42,612 nucleotides of DNA from an uncultured Alphaproteobacteria bacterium. Lineage in GTDB: Bacteria; Pseudomonadota; Alphaproteobacteria; RF32; CAG-239. The notes beneath the pieces were generated by a model. That model saw only the letters and a list, made by a program, of their open reading frames with translations. It was not told where the DNA came from and did not search any database. Both the position numbers and the translations under genes were made by a program. The stretch covers positions 1 through 42,612 of the forward strand of contig CALXUQ010000007.1 of NCBI GenBank assembly GCA_944391725.1. Direction: 5' to 3'. Shown one piece after another: positions 721 through 37,565 of this stretch; positions within the stretch are counted from its first letter, which is position 1, and each line of letters begins with the position of its first letter.

Positions 721-852
721 TGGGGAAAGTACAGGAGCTGGGTACTCCCGCAAGCGGGTCCTCCTCATCACGTAAGGCTCTGTCTGCGCACTTTGTGCTT
801 GCCAATCGCCAACTATCGACTTCGAACCTTACAGGTTCGCGTCCAACTTTCC
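721..852 (-). other. tRNA-like element sharing the tRNA-Ser acceptor stem
   Basis: Read on the minus strand it begins GGAAAGTTGG and ends CCTGTACTTTCCCCA, nearly the same first and last bases as the tRNA-Ser gene at 893-979. The seven acceptor pairs (GGAAAGT/ACTTTCC) are kept and CCA follows directly, without the discriminator base. The interior does not fold as a normal tRNA. It holds three hairpins: CGAACCT/AGGTTCG, GCAC/GTGC and ACCCGC/GCGGGA. No anticodon arm is visible. It could be a decayed tRNA-Ser duplicate, a tRNA-derived repeat or a tRNA-like RNA domain; the sequence cannot separate these. Confidence 0.5.
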
Positions 853-859
853 TAAAATT

Positions 860-890
860 AAAAAAAACCGAGCGATGCTCGGTTCTTTTT
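860..890 (-). terminator. Terminator of tRNA-Ser
   Basis: Stem ACCGAGC/GCTCGGT (867-883) with a three-base loop, followed on the minus strand by a run of T (complement of the A-run at 859-867). It sits directly after the tRNA CCA end. A T-run also follows on the plus strand, so it may work both ways. Confidence 0.7.
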
Positions 891-892
891 AA

Positions 893-979
893 TGGCGGAA
901 AGTACAGGACTCGAACCTGTGGAACGGAAACCCGTTCACGGATTAGCAATCCGCTGCATTACCACTCTGCCAACTTTCC
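893..979 (-). tRNA. tRNA-Ser (anticodon GCU)
   Basis: Class II tRNA of 87 bases including an encoded CCA. The acceptor stem GGAAAGT/ACTTTCC is perfect and the discriminator is G. The anticodon stem CGGA/TCCG encloses the loop TTGCTAA, giving anticodon GCU for AGC/AGU serine codons. A long variable arm built on AACGGG/CCGTT follows, then the T arm with GGTTCGAGTCC. The long arm together with GCU makes serine identity secure. Confidence 0.96.
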
Positions 980-996
980 AGCGCGGTATGGGGTAA

Positions 997-1025
997 TATG
1001 TATATTATCTTTCCTCACTCGTCAA
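997..1025 (-). promoter_or_regulatory. Candidate promoter of tRNA-Ser
   Basis: On the minus strand TTGACG (1020-1025) is followed after 17 bases by TACATA (997-1002), or after 15 bases by TATACA (999-1004). It lies about 20 bases before the tRNA 5' end in an AT-rich stretch. The -35 box is good and the -10 box only fair. Confidence 0.4.
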
Positions 1026-1156
1026 TACATTTTTTTAATTTATTTTCCGTTTTTATAAAACTTATTCTTTTTCACCCCCTCACCCCTTGACTTTATTTAC
1101 CCAAGGCTTATCACATTAGCTAATAAATCATATTATCAACATTCAAATTATTACTT

Positions 1157-1384
1157 ATGAAGACATTATTATTTTCATGTTTGTGCTGTGGATTTTTATC
1201 TTGTTCAAGCAGTATTCCAAGTGTGAGAGCTCCATCATCTACAACAGCTCCACAAGAATATTCCCTTAAACCTAATATGGATATAGCAACACAAAGTCAA
1301 GAAGACCAAAAACGCCTTATCCAATTTGCAGATAAAAATAATCTTGTATCCATCAGCATTTTCTGTTTATCGCTCGATAAATAG
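1157..1384 (+). CDS. Small putative lipoprotein
   Basis: A 75-residue product with a short positive start, a hydrophobic stretch and a lipobox-like FLSC at residues 13-16, followed by a serine-rich spacer. This is the pattern of a signal peptidase II substrate anchored by Cys16. The rest is polar and matches no family I know. It is monocistronic and ends just before a strong terminator. The ribosome site is weak, so translation is likely but not certain. An alternative is a short spurious frame, but the signal peptide and the terminator argue against that. Confidence 0.55.
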   Translation: MKTLLFSCLCCGFLSCSSSIPSVRAPSSTTAPQEYSLKPNMDIATQSQEDQKRLIQFADKNNLVSISIFCLSLDK

Positions 1385-1394
1385 CTAATATTAA

Positions 1395-1426
1395 AAAAGC
1401 GTACTTTTCAAAGTACGCTTTTTTTT
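1395..1426. terminator. Bidirectional terminator between convergent genes
   Basis: Eleven-pair stem AAGCGTACTTT/AAAGTACGCTT at 1397-1420 with a two-base nominal loop, flanked by A-rich sequence on the left and eight T on the right. It separates the small lipoprotein (plus) from the ZIP gene (minus) and can end both. Confidence 0.8.
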
Positions 1427-1427
1427 C

Positions 1428-2201
1428 TTAATCCAATACAATTTTGATGTAAGTCATACAAATAAAGCCCAAGAACAATGCACAGGCAGACTTTTCTGTT
1501 TTTTTAAAACCATAAGTCTCTGGCAAAATCTCATTTACGACCACAAACAACAAAGTACCCCCGGCCATGGCCATGCCAAGCGGAACAATTTTTTCGCTCA
1601 TACCCATGGTTACCAAACCAAGCGCCGCCCCCAAAGGCTGTACCAACCCGATTGCAGCCGCAGTCAAGGCAGCTTTGAGACGCGAACATTTAGCTGCCAC
1701 TAACGAAATGGCAATGGTTAAACCTTCAGGAATATTGTGCACCGCGATTCCTAAAACCAAACTATTGGGGTTCATAAAATTTTCTGCACTATAAGCAACC
1801 CCAACCGCCAATCCTTCGGGGATTTTGTGAAGAGTAATGGCAATAATAAACAGCCACGCCGTTTTGAGGCTAAAGTGCATACCATGATGCCCCATATTAT
1901 TATGCTCATGAGGTAATAGCTCATTAAGAACCCACACTAAAGCCACACCGGAAAACACAGCCCCGGTATACCACAATGCCGCCACTTGAATATTAGAATG
2001 GAATTTGATGATTTGGTTCATCGAAGGAGACAGCAAAGAGAAAAATGCCGCCGCCAACATTACCCCTGCTGCAATATTAAGCAAGAAGTTTATATTTTCT
2101 TGAGAATAGCGCTTTTTCAAAAATATCATAAAACCGCCCACACCGGTAATCAGTCCGGCAACGGTTGCAGCAATCATTCCTTGAGTAAAAATTGTTTCCA
2201 T
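1428..2201 (-). CDS. ZIP family metal transporter
   Basis: Inner-membrane importer of divalent metal, most likely zinc or iron. The two signature helices are plain: HKIPEG at residues 125-130 and HNIPEG at 155-160, which form the metal site in ZupT/GufA-type ZIPs. A histidine-rich loop (HEHNNMGHHGMH, 98-109) precedes them, as usual between TM3 and TM4. Eight hydrophobic segments are visible in 257 residues, the normal bacterial length. The start has GAGGGAT five bases upstream. It is monocistronic. No metal-responsive operator is recognisable in the 130-base upstream gap. Substrate is inferred from family only. Confidence 0.9.
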   Translation of the reverse strand: METIFTQGMIAATVAGLITGVGGFMIFLKKRYSQENINFLLNIAAGVMLAAAFFSLLSPSMNQIIKFHSNIQVAALWYTGAVFSGVALVWVLNELLPHEHNNMGHHGMHFSLKTAWLFIIAITLHKIPEGLAVGVAYSAENFMNPNSLVLGIAVHNIPEGLTIAISLVAAKCSRLKAALTAAAIGLVQPLGAALGLVTMGMSEKIVPLGMAMAGGTLLFVVVNEILPETYGFKKTEKSACALFLGFICMTYIKIVLD

Positions 2202-9109: not shown

Positions 9110-9338
9110 GCCCACAAAACCCCTCAACTAAATTGTAGTCGAGAGATGACATAACATTATGCTTAAAAACAAAGCGACCACAATCCTAGCGTACAAAGAA
9201 ATAAAATAACTCAACCTTTGGCACAAAAAAAGTTCGGAGTTTGAGGTTAGTAGAGTGATTTATAGGGGAGATGACAATCCTAGCGTACAAAGAAATAAAA
9301 TAACTCAACCTTTGGCACGAAAAAAGTTCAAGATTTGC
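9110..9338. repeat. Degenerate and half copies of the intergenic hairpin families
   Basis: 9113-9152 resembles the palindrome at 36454-36490 (CCCCT...GTAGTCGAG). Two half copies of the long hairpin follow: a 55-base segment at 9181-9235 is repeated at 9275-9329 with one mismatch. Both carry the conserved loop side TCCTAGCGTA, but then run into AAAGAAATAAAATAACTC instead of the complementary arm. Bases 8998-9109 show no gene or clear signal. Confidence 0.65.
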
Positions 9339-9431
9339 GGCTTATAACGTGAAAAACAAAGCGGTCAAAATCCTAGCGTATATAGAAATACGTGGATTTT
9401 GACCGTTCTGCAGTTTTTCGCGCTAGAAGCC
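9339..9431. repeat. Long hairpin element, copy C
   Basis: A 93-base imperfect palindrome. The outer arms GGCTTATAACG/CGCTAGAAGCC and GAAAAAC/GTTTTTC are followed by a perfect 12-pair stem CGGTCAAAATCC/GGATTTTGACCG and an apical GCGTA/TACGT pairing. It is almost identical to the copy at 36787-36879. It lies downstream of the minus-strand acylphosphatase gene, where a terminator or 3' stabiliser would be. Confidence 0.8.
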
Positions 9432-9464
9432 CAAAACAATCTTTAAACTCTGGCACCCCTTAAA

Positions 9465-9600
9465 GTTCGGAGAATGAGTCGTATAGAGTAATTTCTAGGA
9501 GCGAAACAAACCCTAGCGTAGATAGACCTACGTGGGTTTGTTGAGTTCTCCGTAAAATTGCTCTAGACGACCATTATACGAGCTTTAAGAGAGCTTTAAG
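9465..9600. repeat. Long hairpin element, copy D (different stem)
   Basis: Same architecture and same apical segment (CTAGCGTA...TACGTGG) as copy C but with another stem: AACAAACCC (9505-9513) pairs with GGGTTTGTT (9534-9542), and AGAG-AATTT pairs with AAATT-CTCT outside it. The right flank, rich in CTTTAAG, abuts the acylphosphatase stop codon. The change of stem sequence with pairing retained shows that the fold is selected. Confidence 0.75.
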
Positions 9601-9894
9601 TTACCAAACCCTCACAAACTTCCCCACCTCAATCGGCGGCAAAAAGGAGCTGACCCGCCCCACAATGAAAGATACGCGGTCAACCCGAGCTAAAGACGGA
9701 CCCTTGTGACAAGCCAAAATCATGGCATCAATTTTTTCTTCTTCGCCGGACATCAAAATTTCTACACTGCCATCGGGCGCATTGCGCACCCAACCGGAGA
9801 TTCCCCCAATCGCCTCTGCAGTCTTAATCGCCCAGTAGCGAAAACCAATCCCCTGCACGCGTCCCTGAATTTTGATGTAGACTTCTTTATCCAT
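9601..9894 (-). CDS. acyP: Acylphosphatase
   Basis: Small enzyme that hydrolyses acyl phosphates such as carbamoyl- and acetyl-phosphate. The 97-residue product has the phosphate loop RVQGIGFRYW near residues 12-21, including the catalytic arginine, and the GWVRNAPDGSVEI strand with the catalytic asparagine. It overlaps the end of the ATP12-like gene by eight bases, so the two are translationally coupled. The C-terminal tail (FLPPIEVGKFVRVW) is slightly different from the usual F.I.Y ending. It is last in the run rluC-asmA-atp12-acyP and is followed directly by the hairpin cluster. Confidence 0.93.
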   Translation of the reverse strand: MDKEVYIKIQGRVQGIGFRYWAIKTAEAIGGISGWVRNAPDGSVEILMSGEEEKIDAMILACHKGPSLARVDRVSFIVGRVSSFLPPIEVGKFVRVW

Positions 9895-19561: not shown

Positions 19562-21362
19562 CAATCATCCGCTCGGTTTGGGCTTTTTCTTTAGCTTTTT
19601 CTTTAGCTTGTGCCAAAGCTTTTTCCTCAGCGGCTTTTTGCATATGCTCGCGTTTACGTTCTTCTAACAAACGTTGTTTTTCGAGCTCTCGGTCATGTTC
19701 CGATTTGGCTCGATTTTGTTCTTGCTCGCGCTGTTGCTCCAGTTCAACCTCGCGACGTTGTTGTTCTTGCTCGCGTTGCCGCTCCAGTTCGACCTCGCGA
19801 CGTTGCTGTTCTTGCTCGCGTTGCCGCTCCAGTTCGACCTCGCGACGTTGCTGTTCCGGCTCATCCTCGCGCCCTTTGTTCCGAAGAGCCGCTTGTTCTT
19901 TGTTTGCCCTTTGTTGCATCATTTTTTGGCGCTCAGCCTCTCGCTGATACAACAATTCCTGTTCCAAACGTCTCTCCCTCTCTTGAGATTCTCGCTCAGC
20001 CACCTGCTGTTGTTCTTCTTTTTCGGCTATTTGTCTTGCTGCCTTTTGTTGACGAATTTCTTGCTGATAAGCCTCCTGCAAAGATTGTTTTTGCTCCGTC
20101 TGAACCGACTGCTGCTCGGCCTCTTCCCGAGCCAAAGTTTGTCTTTCTTGGTTTTCTCTTTGTAGCGCCTCGTTTTCTTGCCGACGATTCTCCTCGCGCA
20201 TTCTAACCGGTTCAGTTTCCCGCGACACTTGCATAGCCGCCCGATTGGCTTGTTCATACAAACGCGCTTGCTTTTCTTGCTCCATCTGCGCCAACATTTC
20301 TTTTTTGCGCGCTTCAATCGCCGCCCGCAGTTCGGCATTATGCGATTTCACTTCCGCCTCTCGTTCACCGCGAATATGTTCCAGCGCTTCCGTATCTTTA
20401 ACCGGAGGCTTGGGAGCACCGCTCCGAAAAACCTTTTTACCCACCTTCAAAATTTGTTCAATACTAATACCTTTGTGCTTGGTAGTATCAATCACCCCAA
20501 ACTGTCCGCGCCCAAAAAACAGGCCTTCCAAATCAATATTCAGCTTTTTGGCTTGCGGCTTTTTCGGAGCTAATAGTTTGGCCAATTCCTGAGCATTAGG
20601 CACTCGCCCCAAAGCTTGAGCAATTTGCTCGGGCGTAATTTTGCATTCGCTCAGATCCAGACCAACAATATTCACTCCGGTAAAATCACACCCCGTAAAA
20701 TCCACTCCGCGCAGACTTACTTTAGATAAATCAATTTTTGATAAATCCAGCAAAGTCAGATTGATACGAGCTAAGTTTAGTTTATGAGGATAATATTTTG
20801 CTAAATATTCAATTAAGGCTTGAAGTTCTTCAATCCCGAGTTCATCAATGGTAATATCGAGCAGCAGTGTCCCTTCGATATCGGCCTCATTTAGTTTCAC
20901 CCCACTCAGATTCGCGCCGGTAAAATTAGCATTTTTGAGCACCGTTCCGGACAATATAGCCCCGGTCAAATCCGCCCCGGAGAGATTGGCTTCCGTCAAA
21001 TTAGCCCCCGAAAAATCCACCCCTTTGAGGTTACATCCCGAAAAATCCACCCCGGTTAAATTAGCGACCGAGAAACTGGCATTTTCAAGATTCTCGCCGA
21101 CAAACTTTCCGCCTTCAAGATTTTTGCCGCTAAATTCAATAGTTCCGATTGTACTTCCGCCCAAAACCGATTGTCCGGCCACGGCCGACCAGCTCACGGT
21201 TCCGCCATCATCATCGGGTTTAGGACGAGGTTTAGCAGATTTATCCTCAGTCGCCAAGTGGTCCTCAGTTTCCCTAACCGGCGCATCAGATTGCTCGCGT
21301 GAATGTTTCAACTTCTCACGCATGGCTTGCAATCCAAAATCTGTCGTATCTTGCTCACTCAT
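19536..21362 (-). CDS. Pentapeptide-repeat and coiled-coil protein
   Basis: A 608-residue modular protein. A low-complexity start (1-60) is followed by pentapeptide repeats of the A(D/N)LxG type (about 75-165, with a short second set about 205-243), which build a right-handed quadrilateral beta helix. From about residue 310 to 600 it is a Q/E/R-rich helix, probably a long coiled coil, containing near-identical repeats of 16 residues around REVELERQREQEQ. No signal peptide is seen. Its 3' end overlaps the coupling-ATPase gene by 26 bases, which implies coupled translation and a shared task. It could be an adaptor, scaffold or substrate of that ATPase. The ATG at 21362 is preferred over an upstream TTG. 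Confidence 0.75.
   Translation of the reverse strand: MSEQDTTDFGLQAMREKLKHSREQSDAPVRETEDHLATEDKSAKPRPKPDDDGGTVSWSAVAGQSVLGGSTIGTIEFSGKNLEGGKFVGENLENASFSVANLTGVDFSGCNLKGVDFSGANLTEANLSGADLTGAILSGTVLKNANFTGANLSGVKLNEADIEGTLLLDITIDELGIEELQALIEYLAKYYPHKLNLARINLTLLDLSKIDLSKVSLRGVDFTGCDFTGVNIVGLDLSECKITPEQIAQALGRVPNAQELAKLLAPKKPQAKKLNIDLEGLFFGRGQFGVIDTTKHKGISIEQILKVGKKVFRSGAPKPPVKDTEALEHIRGEREAEVKSHNAELRAAIEARKKEMLAQMEQEKQARLYEQANRAAMQVSRETEPVRMREENRRQENEALQRENQERQTLAREEAEQQSVQTEQKQSLQEAYQQEIRQQKAARQIAEKEEQQQVAERESQERERRLEQELLYQREAERQKMMQQRANKEQAALRNKGREDEPEQQRREVELERQREQEQQRREVELERQREQEQQRREVELEQQREQEQNRAKSEHDRELEKQRLLEERKREHMQKAAEEKALAQAKEKAKEKAQTERMIDARGRSRD
19715..19860. repeat. Tandem 48-base coding repeat
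   Basis: About three units of a 48-base sequence built on CTCCAGTTCGACCTCGCGACG and GTTCTTGCTCGCG lie inside the coiled-coil region of the pentapeptide-repeat gene. The last two units are almost identical and the first has a few changes. The length is a multiple of three, so copy-number change would keep the frame. Confidence 0.8.
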
Positions 21363-25998: not shown

Positions 25999-26179
25999 GA
26001 TTAATCGCTCAATTTGCGAGTTTCATTTTTTCTTGAAACTTAAGGACTGTCAGGAAACTCGATAATTGAGATGAGTAGAAGCGAAAATAGAAAAGACGAA
26101 AATCCTAGTGTACATAGTAGTACATGGATTTTCGGCTCTTTCTGATTTTTGCGATTAATCGCTCAATTTGCGAGTTTCC
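25999..26179. repeat. Long hairpin element, copy E, and 26-base duplication of the tilS 3' end
   Basis: A 127-base imperfect palindrome spans 26053-26179. GGAAACTCG and AATTGAG on the left pair with CTCAATT and CGAGTTTCC on the right; an inner GAAAATCC/GGATTTTC stem and an apical TGTAC/GTACA follow. The right arm is the last eight codons and stop of tilS. The same 26 bases (GATTAATCGC through GCGAGTTTC) occur again in direct orientation at 25999-26024. The apical segment CCTAGTGTA...ACATGG is the counterpart of CCTAGCGTA...ACGTGG in the other copies. Confidence 0.78.
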
Positions 26180-27276
26180 AAAGCACGGCGTAATTTATAA
26201 GGCAACTCCACTACCTTTTTTCCGTTCCCTCCATACTCTGGGTGAGCGGCCACAAAATCGGCCCAAGCTTGCTTGGATAGTTTGTGAGGACTTTTGAGTT
26301 CTTGGACAATCCATAGTTGCTTTTGAAATTTAAAAATCTCACAATCAGAAAGTGTACGTCCGGAAAAATCCGACTGGTGCAAGGCTTCCCAAAGTCGCTC
26401 AACCTCTTCCATACCGGGAGGGTAGATTTTTCCGCTTATTTTTTTAAGCAGACTGCTCAGCACTCGCAAACCGATTTCCTCATGCAAAGATAACAAAGAA
26501 GCAGGCGAAAGCGAAGCCCCGACATCACCCCAAAACTTGACTTCTTGGTGAACAAAGCTATCGGTTTGCTTTTCCAGATAGTCGCGCACTCGCGCCATTT
26601 CCATTGCGGTGTTACACAAGCGCTCCCGGCTCAAACCAATATTTGCTTCCAACTCCGGCAAGAGTTTACGAATTTTCACCCGCAGAAAATCCTCACAATC
26701 ATTGGAAGCATCTTCCACCCAAGCGATATTTTGTTTTTGCAAATATGATTTTAAGTCTTCCGGATTAATCTGGAGCAAAGGCCGCGCAATATAGAGATTT
26801 TTCCATTTAACCAGTGGCGCCATCGCCGACAAACCATCCACCCCGCTACCTCGTTGTAAGCGCATTAAAAAGGTTTCGGCTTGGTCACGCTTGTGGTGCG
26901 CAATCAGCAAAGCCGAGGCTCCGTTTTGCATACACCAATCATACATCAGACCATAGCGAGCCACCCGCGCCGCATTTTCAATCCCCCGAGATGGCTTGTC
27001 GCCTTGCCAATATAAAATCTGGTGTTTGATACCATGAGTTTTCATAAGTTGCGCCACATACTGCGCCTCATCTTCGGCCTCAGGGCGCAAGCCATGCTGC
27101 ACGGTCAACGCCGTAAAATTTCGATTATGTTTAGCGCACCATTTGGTGAGCAAAAACACCAAAGCTAACGAGTCTGCCCCACCGGACACCCCGACGGCCC
27201 AATCTCCGGTCACCTCGGATTTATTATCCAGCCAAGCCCAAAAATTGTTAAGCTCCACCTGCCAAGCCGAATTCAT
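26155..27276 (-). CDS. tilS: tRNA(Ile)-lysidine synthetase
   Basis: ATP-dependent enzyme that attaches lysine to C34 of the AUA-reading tRNA(Ile). The PP-loop VGVSGGADSLALVFLL gives SGGADS at residues 31-36, and later family motifs follow, including HHKRDQAETFLMRL and RGSGVDGLSAM. At 373 residues it is within the normal range. I start at the ATG at 27276, five bases after the ybgF stop; a TTG at 27291 would overlap ybgF. It lies in the alphaproteobacterial order pal-ybgF-tilS, but ftsH, the usual next gene, is absent and the hairpin repeat follows. Its last eight codons form one arm of that hairpin. Confidence 0.95.
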   Translation of the reverse strand: MNSAWQVELNNFWAWLDNKSEVTGDWAVGVSGGADSLALVFLLTKWCAKHNRNFTALTVQHGLRPEAEDEAQYVAQLMKTHGIKHQILYWQGDKPSRGIENAARVARYGLMYDWCMQNGASALLIAHHKRDQAETFLMRLQRGSGVDGLSAMAPLVKWKNLYIARPLLQINPEDLKSYLQKQNIAWVEDASNDCEDFLRVKIRKLLPELEANIGLSRERLCNTAMEMARVRDYLEKQTDSFVHQEVKFWGDVGASLSPASLLSLHEEIGLRVLSSLLKKISGKIYPPGMEEVERLWEALHQSDFSGRTLSDCEIFKFQKQLWIVQELKSPHKLSKQAWADFVAAHPEYGGNGKKVVELPYKLRRALETRKLSD

Positions 27277-27281
27277 TTTAA

Positions 27282-28151
27282 TTACTTGCACCCCAATTTT
27301 TTGGCTTCACTGGCCGCCCGATCCAAAATCGCCTTATCTGCTTTGGGGAACTCGGTTTTCATACTGTTAAAAGCTTGACAAGCCTCCGTATTTTTCTTCA
27401 AATTTTGCATGGACATACCAAGCTTAAGCAAGCTATCCGGACCTTTGGAGCCATCTTTATATTTTTCAATCACTTTCGCAAAAGCCACTGCTGCTTTCTG
27501 ATAATTTTTCTGCCCATAGAAGACCTCACCCAACCAATATTGAGCATTTCCGGCCAACTTATCATCAGGAGCCTTTTTCAAAATATCATTAAAGCGTTGC
27601 TCTGCCACTTCAAAATCACTAATTTTAACGGCGGCAATACCTTCATCATAAATCTGCTGTACGGACTTAGTTTTCACCGGAGCCAAATCATCACCTTTAG
27701 CAATACTGTCTCCCGTTACAGACTTGGGCGCTCCGACTGCCACCGGAGCCTTAAATTTTTCTTGGTTCAGCGAGAGCGAAGCCGGCGGAGTAGTGCCGTC
27801 AACTGGTTTTCCCTCAATCATCTTGATACGCACATCAACGTCTTTATTAATCAAATCAATTTTATTTTCGAGTTGTTTGATTTTGTAATTAGTTTCATCA
27901 ACTTGACCGCTAATCTGGCGCAATTTCTCATCAAATTCACCGATTTTGACTGCGATATCTGCGGCCGAACGAGGATTGGAAATTCCGTCATTTTGCTCCC
28001 GATACATTTGTCGTTGCAAAATTTCCAATTCCTGACGAATAGCCTCAATTTCGTTCATAACCGGCTCCGAGGCATTATATTGTTGAGCCCGAGCCGAAAC
28101 ACTACTGCTTAAAATTGCCGCACAAACAAAAGTCAAATATTTATGGTTCAT
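27282..28151 (-). CDS. ybgF: Cell division coordinator CpoB / Tol-Pal protein YbgF
   Basis: Periplasmic partner of the Tol-Pal complex that links outer-membrane constriction with peptidoglycan synthesis. A signal peptide (MNHKYLTFVCAAILSSSVSARA) precedes a coiled-coil trimerisation region (about residues 30-110). A proline- and lysine-containing linker follows, then tetratricopeptide repeats (about 160-289; AQYWLGEVFYGQKNYQKAAVAF is typical). The ATG at 28151 with AAGG upstream is chosen because it starts the signal peptide; the frame is open 13 codons further. Length is 289. It lies between pal, from which a terminator separates it, and tilS. Confidence 0.93.
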   Translation of the reverse strand: MNHKYLTFVCAAILSSSVSARAQQYNASEPVMNEIEAIRQELEILQRQMYREQNDGISNPRSAADIAVKIGEFDEKLRQISGQVDETNYKIKQLENKIDLINKDVDVRIKMIEGKPVDGTTPPASLSLNQEKFKAPVAVGAPKSVTGDSIAKGDDLAPVKTKSVQQIYDEGIAAVKISDFEVAEQRFNDILKKAPDDKLAGNAQYWLGEVFYGQKNYQKAAVAFAKVIEKYKDGSKGPDSLLKLGMSMQNLKKNTEACQAFNSMKTEFPKADKAILDRAASEAKKLGCK

Positions 28152-36261: not shown

Positions 36262-36660
36262 CACAAATTTGCGGCTTATAACGTGAAAAACAAAGCGGTC
36301 AATGCAACAGAGCCAGCAATTTTCTTTCAAGGCAAAGTCAAGTAAAAAGCTCATCCCTCGATTGCGCAAGCAATCGTCAAACCCAAAGAGTCATCCCTCG
36401 TTTTTCAGAGAAAAACGTCCAGGGATCTTCCGATTAAAGAGACAAACTCGAAGACCCCTTGACGACTACTATCGTAGTCGAGGGGTGACATTTATATTGT
36501 ATTAGTCGCCCGCTAGACGAACTTTAAACTTCGGCACGAAAAAAGTTCAAGATTTGCGGCTTATAACGTGAAAAACAAAGCGGTCAAAATCCAGCGTATA
36601 AAGAAATAAATAACTCAACCTCTGGCACTTCTTAAAGGTCGGATAGTGAGGGGAATAATA
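36262..36660. repeat. Mosaic of hairpin-family fragments and short palindromes
   Basis: 36267-36300 is a truncated left arm of the long hairpin (GCGGCTTATAACGTG...AAAGCGGTC). 36351-36432 is the second copy of the double palindrome seen at 627-717. 36454-36490 is a further palindrome (CCCCT-GAC-ACTAC, TATC, GTAGT-GAGGGG). 36499-36592 is a 94-base segment repeated at 36728-36821 with two mismatches; here it continues as a half hairpin. No convincing gene lies in the region. Confidence 0.72.
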
Positions 36661-36727
36661 AGAAACCAGAAAAAATACGACTGAGTGTATAAAGACATAC
36701 ACGATTAGAGTATTTTTTCTGGCTTCT
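36661..36727. repeat. Long hairpin element, copy F (third stem sequence)
   Basis: The perfect 13-pair stem CCAGAAAAAATAC (36666-36678) / GTATTTTTTCTGG (36710-36722) is extended by AGAA/TTCT, with an apical six-pair hairpin GTGTAT/ATACAC around AAAGAC. It has the same layout as copies C, D, E and G but a different stem and apex, with pairing retained. Confidence 0.8.
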
Positions 36728-36886
36728 GTATTAGTCGCCCGCTAGACGAGCTTTAAACTCCGGCACGAAAAAAGTTCAAGATTTGCGGCTTATAACGTGA
36801 AAAACAAAGCGGTCAAAATCCTAGCGTAGATAGACCTACGTGGATTTTGACCGTTCTGCAGTTTTTCGCGCTAGAAGCCCAAATAC
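36728..36886. repeat. Long hairpin element, copy G, with conserved linker
   Basis: The linker GTATTAGTCGCCCGCTAGACG with CTTTAAACT...AGTTCAAG (36728-36784) leads into the 93-base palindrome 36787-36879. That palindrome is almost the same as copy C at 9339-9431, differing mainly in the apical loop. It ends 17 bases from the stop of the beta-barrel gene. Confidence 0.8.
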
Positions 36887-36895
36887 TGAACTTTT

Positions 36896-37504
36896 TTAGA
36901 AGGTGTAACGCAAACCTGCATAGTACTCATGCGCGTTCACATCTGCCTCGTCGATTGAGCCCATATCTAAGTAACGATAACCAAAATCAAGATTGAGGCA
37001 CTTATTGAGGCGGATAGATAAACCACCACCCAAAGACCATGTAAAGTTATTTTCATCCCAATTACGAGGATTACCGCCGGTTGCACGCGTTGTCATGGTC
37101 AAATCGGTATAACCCAAACCACCGCTGATGTAGGGGCTGATGATATAATTTGGCATGAGGTCAATATAGCCATTAACCATATAAGACTTTGCCTCCAAGC
37201 TGGCTTCACGCATTGTACCGGGAAGAGCTCCGGCCACACGCTCCGAATAGTCATCACGATAGGTATATTCTAACTCAGCCCGGAAGTAGCGCCAACGATA
37301 ACCGAATGCACCGCTGACAAACCACACATCATCAAAATCGATAACGGCTTTATCATAAAAGCTGTCTTTTTTAGAGTTCATATTCGGGTTAGTACGTCCG
37401 CCTTTAACTGACAAATAAAGCCCGTCGCGTGCTTCTGCCACACCGGCCGAAACAAAAGATGCCAACACTAGAGCTGATGCCGCCATAAGAAATTTTTTGC
37501 TCAT
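36896..37504 (-). CDS. Outer-membrane beta-barrel protein
   Basis: Small barrel of the OmpA/Opa-like eight-strand class. A signal peptide (MSKKFLMAASALVLASFVSAGVAEA) precedes alternating amphipathic strands such as GLYLSVKGGRTNPNM, YFRAELEYTYRDDY and PYISGGLGYTDLTM. The C-terminal strand YYAGLRYTF ends in phenylalanine, the signal recognised by the BAM complex. The mature length is about 177. The ATG at 37504 has GGAGAT nine bases upstream; the frame is open 20 codons further, but that would precede the signal peptide. It has a good promoter at 37566-37594. Ligand or role is unknown. Confidence 0.88.
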   Translation of the reverse strand: MSKKFLMAASALVLASFVSAGVAEARDGLYLSVKGGRTNPNMNSKKDSFYDKAVIDFDDVWFVSGAFGYRWRYFRAELEYTYRDDYSERVAGALPGTMREASLEAKSYMVNGYIDLMPNYIISPYISGGLGYTDLTMTTRATGGNPRNWDENNFTWSLGGGLSIRLNKCLNLDFGYRYLDMGSIDEADVNAHEYYAGLRYTF

Positions 37505-37565
37505 AAACTTAATCTCCACACTCAGTTTATACAAACATTTTCGTAATTTTTTATAATTTGTCAAA

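Follow-up and report, generated by a model that had tools for sequence, protein, structure and literature searches.

Rickettsia palindromic elements (RPE), known since 2000, are dispersed palindromes of ~95-150 bp, many of which lie inside open reading frames (ORFs); the literature searched identifies no mover for them. RIME-type elements of rhizobia may be linked to the hairpin family described here. In Brucella, the palindromic intergenic repeats Bru-RS1 and Bru-RS2 measure 103-118 bp, and the Bru-RS of this genus and RPE-4 to RPE-7 of Rickettsia have been listed as distinct families (PMC2267715). The GTAG/CGTC REPs, which occur with RAYTs, are palindromes of 20-40 bp that carry the tag at their foot (PMC3733652). 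The QMITE2 element of Coxiella is a hairpin of 150-190 bp found mainly in 3' UTRs, and it is also present in some alphaproteobacteria (PMC5896051).

The hairpins reported here resemble REPs in being palindromes that lie downstream of genes, occur in clusters and span several phyla (PMC3733652). However, they are ~125 nt long, are conserved at the tip, carry no GTAG/CGTC tag at the foot and need no resident Y1 transposase. They also differ from RPE, as the window elements form intergenic or gene-end arrays and in-frame insertion inside genes occurs only in Rickettsia. Integron attC sites, which are further marked by RYYYAAC/GTTRRRY boxes and an integrase, share with the window elements a folded site that adjoins a stop codon.

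The window, by which we mean the whole 42,612-nucleotide stretch analysed, is a complete contig (C7) of the alphaproteobacterial genome G000 (1.57 Mb in 78 contigs). An initial annotation had reported five hairpin copies in it, and all five are present at the positions given or a few bases off (hairpins C to G, Table 1), although the full hairpins are longer than reported, at ~125-130 nt, as F and G illustrate. A covariance model run over the window returns exactly these five (E 1e-25 to 2e-16); four of them are in the training set and the remaining one is very similar to C, which makes the result a demonstration of completeness rather than independent proof. The apex pattern TAGYGTANATAGNNNTACRTGG has four matches in the window against 0.03 expected. 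An Rfam scan of the window matched only a tRNA family and left the hairpins without a match.

Table 1. Hairpins, truncated copies and adjoining genes of the window, followed by the sites of the associated helix-turn-helix (HTH) unit in G000 and the sister species G003. The strand given for a hairpin is the top strand, the one whose fold is selected, which reads AG...TG at the tip.
Feature	Position	Strand	Evidence or remark
Two truncated copies	9165-9318 (~9165-9200, 9229-9300)	+	Repeat families D8, D11, D17
Hairpin C	9325-9443	+	Covariance model 81.7 bits, E 7.7e-17; fold computed
Hairpin D, C/D array unit nearest acyP	9460-9590 (model match 9464-9585)	+	119.5 bits, E 1e-25
Hairpin D outer stem			TTAAAGTTCG/CGAGCTTTAA; stops ~11 bases short of acyP stop
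acyP (acylphosphatase-like)	9601-9894	-	C/D array at its 3' end; ORF list and translation
Hairpin E	26053-26182 (model match 26056-26177)	+	Sequence, translation, covariance model
tilS	26155-27291	-	ORF list, translation, orthologues
36-bp fragment of the arm of the copy at 36546-36606	36267-36302		Repeat families D1, D4
Truncated copy limited to 5' arm and start of apex	36546-36606	+	Repeat families D1, D4
Hairpin F, outer array unit, second type of middle stem	36632-36756 (model match 36636-36753)	+	90.6 bits
Hairpin G	36768-36897 (model match 36773-36893)	+	86.7 bits; stop adjacency
Outer-membrane beta-barrel gene, end ...GLRYTF*	36896-37564	-	Stop codon in hairpin G base; translation
HTH unit, G000 contig C1, L052	~930-1520		
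HTH unit, G000 contig C1, L053	~820-1390		
HTH unit, G003 contig C1	near 14, 33, 69, 115 kb		
HTH unit, G003 contig C2	near 24, 59 kb		
HTH unit, G003 contig C10	near 23 kb		

Placement of all copies just after minus-strand stop codons, as the initial annotation had it, is broadly right, but F is the second unit behind G rather than at a stop, D ends ~11 bases before the stop of acyP (which we take the gene to be, from the earlier naming and motif recognition), and E enters the coding end of tilS. The right outer arm of E is that coding end (ETRKLSD stop), its left arm is an imperfect inverted copy of the same sequence, and nearby, at 26001-26027, the tilS end recurs as a 26-bp direct copy. 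The outer stem of G, AAAAAAGTTCA/TGAACTTTTTT, overlaps the barrel gene's stop codon; the gene retains a native-looking ...F* end. The truncated copies at 9165-9318 consist of the 5' half and the start of the apex, fused to GAAATAAAATAACTCAACCTTTGGCAC.

Several other repeats occur around these hairpins. A short tag, CTYTGGCAC, stands ~10 bases before the A-tract of most hairpins (36620-36630 and 9298-9320 in the window, and G000 arrays generally) and may be part of the element. Fragments of a CATCCCTCG-type repeat (repeat family D14) lie at 629-682 and 36351-36404, one of them directly preceding the F/G array. The same repeat type is part of a multicopy unit made up of a ~200-nt structured leader, a gene for an 82-aa helix-turn-helix protein and a CATCCCTCG...CGAGGGGTGAC hairpin; the end of the unit adjoins the right half of the present hairpins at a constant junction, GTATTAGTC. 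This unit has no Rfam match, and its Pfam HTH matches are weak. Elsewhere in the window, a minus-strand gene contains 45-base coding repeats at 19673-19852 (repeat family D2).

Computed folds give each unit as one long interrupted hairpin of ~125 nt with breaks at constant places: an outer stem, a GAG/ATA internal loop, ~10 pairs, one mismatch, ~11 pairs, a middle stem and the tip. The middle stem is wholly different between element types, while the tip is conserved in sequence as AGYGTA/TACRTG around a variable loop, which in most cases is longer than the 6-base-gap pattern allows. The covarying stems described in the initial annotation are upheld on 37 elements from several species of the host's taxonomic family. 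Both sides have changed at 21 of the 25 consensus pairs, and 90.3% of cells remain paired, a figure that falls to 33-34% when the partner is slid by one column. Doubly changed cells number 240, where shuffling gives 90 on average and the slid controls never more than 62; these counts are not independent events, because units within an array are homogenised, as in the mreC-mreD arrays of G000 and G003, where the tips of units 1 and 3 differ between the species and match within each.

The inner tip pairs G-C, T-A and A-T are invariant in the same 37 elements, so the tip is conserved by sequence and the arms by structure only. The earlier statement that structure, not sequence, is conserved therefore captures the stems and misses the tip, whose sequence is conserved across phyla as well. 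Compensated change had also been proposed for the apex; its loop is indeed variable, but AG.GTA......TAC is invariant or nearly so and the apex is not free to change. A nested insert of ~80 bases (CAGTCGATAGTTGGCGATTGGCAAGC...GAGATCA) occurs at a fixed point just after the tip in L051, L053 (1626), L064 (6277), L066 and L068 (1227), and is an element targeting the tip.

Comparison of related genomes shows that the elements move. A three-hairpin array lies between mreC and mreD in G000 and in its sister species G003, and is absent from the congener G002 (84% MreC identity) and from all other relatives seen. In the array-free congener, mreD starts within a few bases of mreC. Both species that carry the array have an MreC ending in DYGL*; array-free species have DFGLLEQQ* or a longer end. 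The element lies within the gene's last codons, and its TTAA end provides the new stop codon. The site is filled in two sisters and empty in a congener, which is the one clear empty/filled site worked out, and no target-site duplication was seen there. Terminal inverted repeats, a feature of MITEs, are present as the outer stems.

Another example is the tilS hairpin, which is found in G000 and G003 only. G003 has an extra tandem unit that includes the tilS end, where G000 keeps just the 26-bp direct copy, and other arrays also differ in unit number between the two species. In outline, these comparisons show insertion followed by tandem expansion and contraction. The tilS case and some arrays had suggested that the end of the host gene is in every case the source of the left outer arm. 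This was rejected as a rule, since the outer stem at mreC is missing from the congener's empty site.

The reading that we favour, with a probability slightly better than even, is a family of non-autonomous mobile palindromic elements of the RPE kind, ~100-150 nt long, present in several phyla and moving as single-stranded hairpins in a fork-linked manner. The structure, spread, gene-end placement and mobility of these elements are well supported, and the mechanism of movement is what we infer. An explanation by a known insertion element or MITE with its transposase, which the initial annotation had set against its own reading, proved half right, as the elements are MITE-like and mobile and no transposase is tied to them.

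The position of the elements relative to genes is strongly one-sided. Summed over seven groups, a bottom-strand gene ends 45-75 bases from the hairpin centre in 79 elements, against eight in the mirror arrangement, and in the 79 the gene's stop codon lies in the base of the outer stem. The strand that folds can be read from isolated mismatches in the arms, which were aligned with symmetric penalties: on the top strand, summed over four sets, G.T outnumbers A.C (206 vs 114) and A.G outnumbers C.T (385 vs 35). Wobble and purine-purine mismatches thus point to the top strand, antisense to the adjacent gene, as the one whose fold is under selection. This argues against a simple 3'-UTR role in the mRNA as the source of the constraint.

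Such a role is the essence of one alternative, in which the hairpins are functional 3'-UTR RNAs, either terminators or protectors of mRNA 3' ends, that help the upstream gene, with an old mobility of little importance. A constant position and direction at the 3' ends of genes would suit it, as would the A-tract/T-tract outer stems, which resemble those of bidirectional terminators, and the match of the sRNA family sX9 to two Lysobacterales hairpins on the gene-sense strand. However, like the selection on the antisense fold, arrays that reach five units, the absence of elements from most G003 contigs and an insertion within the mreC-mreD operon, where termination would silence mreD, all speak against it. 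Intrinsic terminators have a GC stem followed by a U run; the outer stems do carry T runs, but these are short, and a terminator scan, itself weak, gave no site overlapping the outer stem. Taken with this evidence, a 3'-UTR function as the main explanation appears unlikely.

Orientation also follows replication. A model scan of 1.17 Mb of G003 gave 30 matches, one being the opposite strand of another, with none on array-free contigs. All 29 elements (12 of 12 sites) have their top strand on the contig's C-rich strand, an orientation that is partly confounded with that of genes, the majority of which are on the leading strand. On the 196-kb contig, all seven sites follow plus-strand genes, though 39% of the coding DNA is on the other strand. 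Local skew around the G000 sites agrees in most cases, with short loci confounded by coding bias. In a complete Rickettsia genome, the skew changes sign at ~380 kb and ~1,075 kb, and the orientation of 27 of 34 elements agrees with it (19 of 23 among the intergenic ones). Around 11 elements of this genome lie within ORFs with the top strand as sense, which fits the in-frame insertions known in Rickettsia (PMC10969869).

Elements in G003 occur on contigs C1, C6, C17, C19 and C20 only, 22 of the 29 on the single 196-kb contig, and C2-C5, C7-C16 and C18 are element-free. The GC skew of element-bearing contigs is at least 0.048 in size; most element-free contigs, not all, show weaker skew. Contig C3 of this assembly (L321, L354-L358; 115 kb) has 17.7% G+C against 41% for the genome and is probably contamination.

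The strand pattern admits a different cause. The instability of palindromes on the lagging strand is established biology, and insertion could be unbiased if whichever strand forms the stronger hairpin has to be kept from serving as lagging-strand template, where palindromes are cleaved or deleted. A survival bias of this kind yields the same pattern as an insertion preference, so the strand bias could reflect survival rather than insertion. In keeping with it, the C-rich strand, which does not serve as the lagging template, is in most cases the one that folds more strongly. The one-sided adjacency to stop codons and the conserved tip are left unexplained by survival, which on its own we consider a possibility of some weight, though not a probable account. 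It is compatible with the favoured reading of mobile hairpins and could replace the lagging-strand insertion step of that reading.

In the proposed mechanism of these mobile palindromic elements, the element would move as a single-stranded hairpin, more likely of DNA than of RNA, and a protein would recognise it at the tip. Pairing with the lagging-strand template, at the replication fork or close to it, the hairpin would become joined to the chromosome. The insertions that survive would mainly be those at the extreme 3' end of a gene, since a stop codon comes with the element's own end and the start of the next gene stays intact. Copies would then multiply and homogenise in tandem.

Two candidate enzymes were considered as movers. 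If the hairpin were the RNA of a SINE-like element, transcribed from the antisense strand and reverse transcribed into gene ends, the selected strand would be that RNA, and a nicked gene 3' end could prime the copying. Yet no reverse transcriptase (RVT_1) is encoded in the copy-rich genomes G000 and G009, and the one array scanned has no promoter for the antisense strand, which leaves this route very unlikely. The other candidate is a Y1 transposase, of the RAYT or IS200 type, moving REP-type repeats. G000 does encode one Y1 transposase, and the hairpin, its gene-end location and the lagging-strand bias recall the REP system. On the other hand, G003 carries 62 copies without any Y1 transposase, no apex copy lies beside the Y1 genes checked, and the conserved part is the tip and not a GTAG foot; we regard movement by Y1 as extremely unlikely. 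A resident Y1 transposase or reverse transcriptase as a required partner is contradicted by the copy-rich genomes that lack each, and a search of the RVT_1 and Y1 families revealed no autonomous transposon with the same ends. A phage origin was likewise rejected, as all viral contigs together hold one exact tip match.

The elements are numerous in the host's relatives. G000 has ~60 apex copies (51 exact matches to a looser tip pattern and ~12 with one mismatch), most of them grouped in arrays, where two to five units follow one another at intervals of 115-310 bases. The copy-rich genomes G000, G003 and G009 have 60-75 copies each. The tip is present in almost every genome of the host's taxonomic family, most of which have at least four apex matches, and similar copies are found on rhizobial and sphingomonad megaplasmids.

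The tip is also found far beyond this family. An exact-tip scan of 84,980 species genomes found at least 115 stretches, against ~15 expected by chance as calculated from the size of the collection. The matches listed include Rickettsia, gut Clostridia, Verrucomicrobia, Deferribacteraceae, Ochrobactrum, Rudaea and a Coxiella endosymbiont, and nearly all of those listed lie in long hairpins; a few loci, for instance in Paenibacillus and Bacilli, look like chance matches. Counts per genome, with a loop of 4-6 bases allowed and the reversed pattern as control, were 187 against 1 in Verrucomicrobia, 56 against 1 and 34 against 3 in two Rickettsia genomes, 46 against 3 in a gammaproteobacterium, 34 against 2 in Ochrobactrum, 33 against 2 in Deferribacteraceae, 26 against 1 in Rudaea, and 22 against 0 and 13 against 1 in two Clostridia. 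Kinship with Coxiella QMITE2 was considered as well, and the two tip matches in one Coxiella endosymbiont genome do not support a shared origin.

A covariance model built from host-family elements only gives full-length matches to foreign elements, across phyla, with E-values down to 2e-8 (Clostridiales 2e-8, Deferribacteraceae 2e-7, Ochrobactrum 3e-7). Several Rickettsia and Verrucomicrobia elements match it at E 1e-5 to 1e-3; such weaker matches are not proof alone, because the foreign loci were preselected by the tip, which by itself contributes up to ~27 bits (L173 being a tip-only match). A scan of 0.8 Mb of the complete Rickettsia genome with a model free of Rickettsia sequences gave 23 matches at E<=1, the best at 3e-4, and some of these are without the exact tip.

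These matches bear on the relation to described families. The view that the hairpins belong to no nameable repeat class agrees with the Rfam result for the window but was too strong, since the same architecture occurs in Rickettsia, in Ochrobactrum and in a Lysobacterales genome. The likeness to RPE lies in long, dispersed palindromes of many copies, with the tip occurring 34 times in one Rickettsia genome and 56 times in another; it rests on tip and model matches in Rickettsia genomes rather than on published RPE consensus sequences, and unification of the window elements with RPE is moderately supported. The likeness to Bru-RS is one of description rather than sequence identity, and comes from Ochrobactrum, closely related to Brucella, where the tip pattern matches 34 times and the model also finds an element. 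The Xanthomonas sRNA sX9 (RF02228) was the only Rfam family to match hairpins across the window, neighbouring arrays and foreign loci. It matches two hairpins of a Lysobacterales genome, apex included, scoring 45.1 bits on one, which passes the cut-off, and 33.0 bits on the other, which does not, but it covers only half of the hairpin, on the gene-sense strand, and the window elements fall below its cut-off. For Bru-RS, RIME and sX9 as families, unification is at the stage of a lead.

The literature searched, in which few subscription papers were reached, holds no source that joins RPE, Bru-RS and sX9 or describes a shared tip, and no paper on the tip sequence or on palindromes, lagging strand and stop codons combined. 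Very tentatively, and as something we hold to be less than probable, all of these may be one ancient cross-phylum class of mobile single-stranded hairpins with the tip AGYGTAC/GTACRTG, moved at the fork by a widely distributed enzyme or host factor and set in fixed orientation at stop codons, of which RPE, the Bru-RS/RIME-like repeats and sX9 would be branches.

A tip and architecture shared among Clostridia, Verrucomicrobia, Alpha- and Gammaproteobacteria would make one class of several local curiosities. The shared tip would also give a concrete recognition sequence with which to find the protein, and together with the covariance model it offers a search handle in unannotated metagenomes. 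The class would, in addition, be a natural case for reading from genome sequences how insertions lie with respect both to stop codons and to the replication fork.
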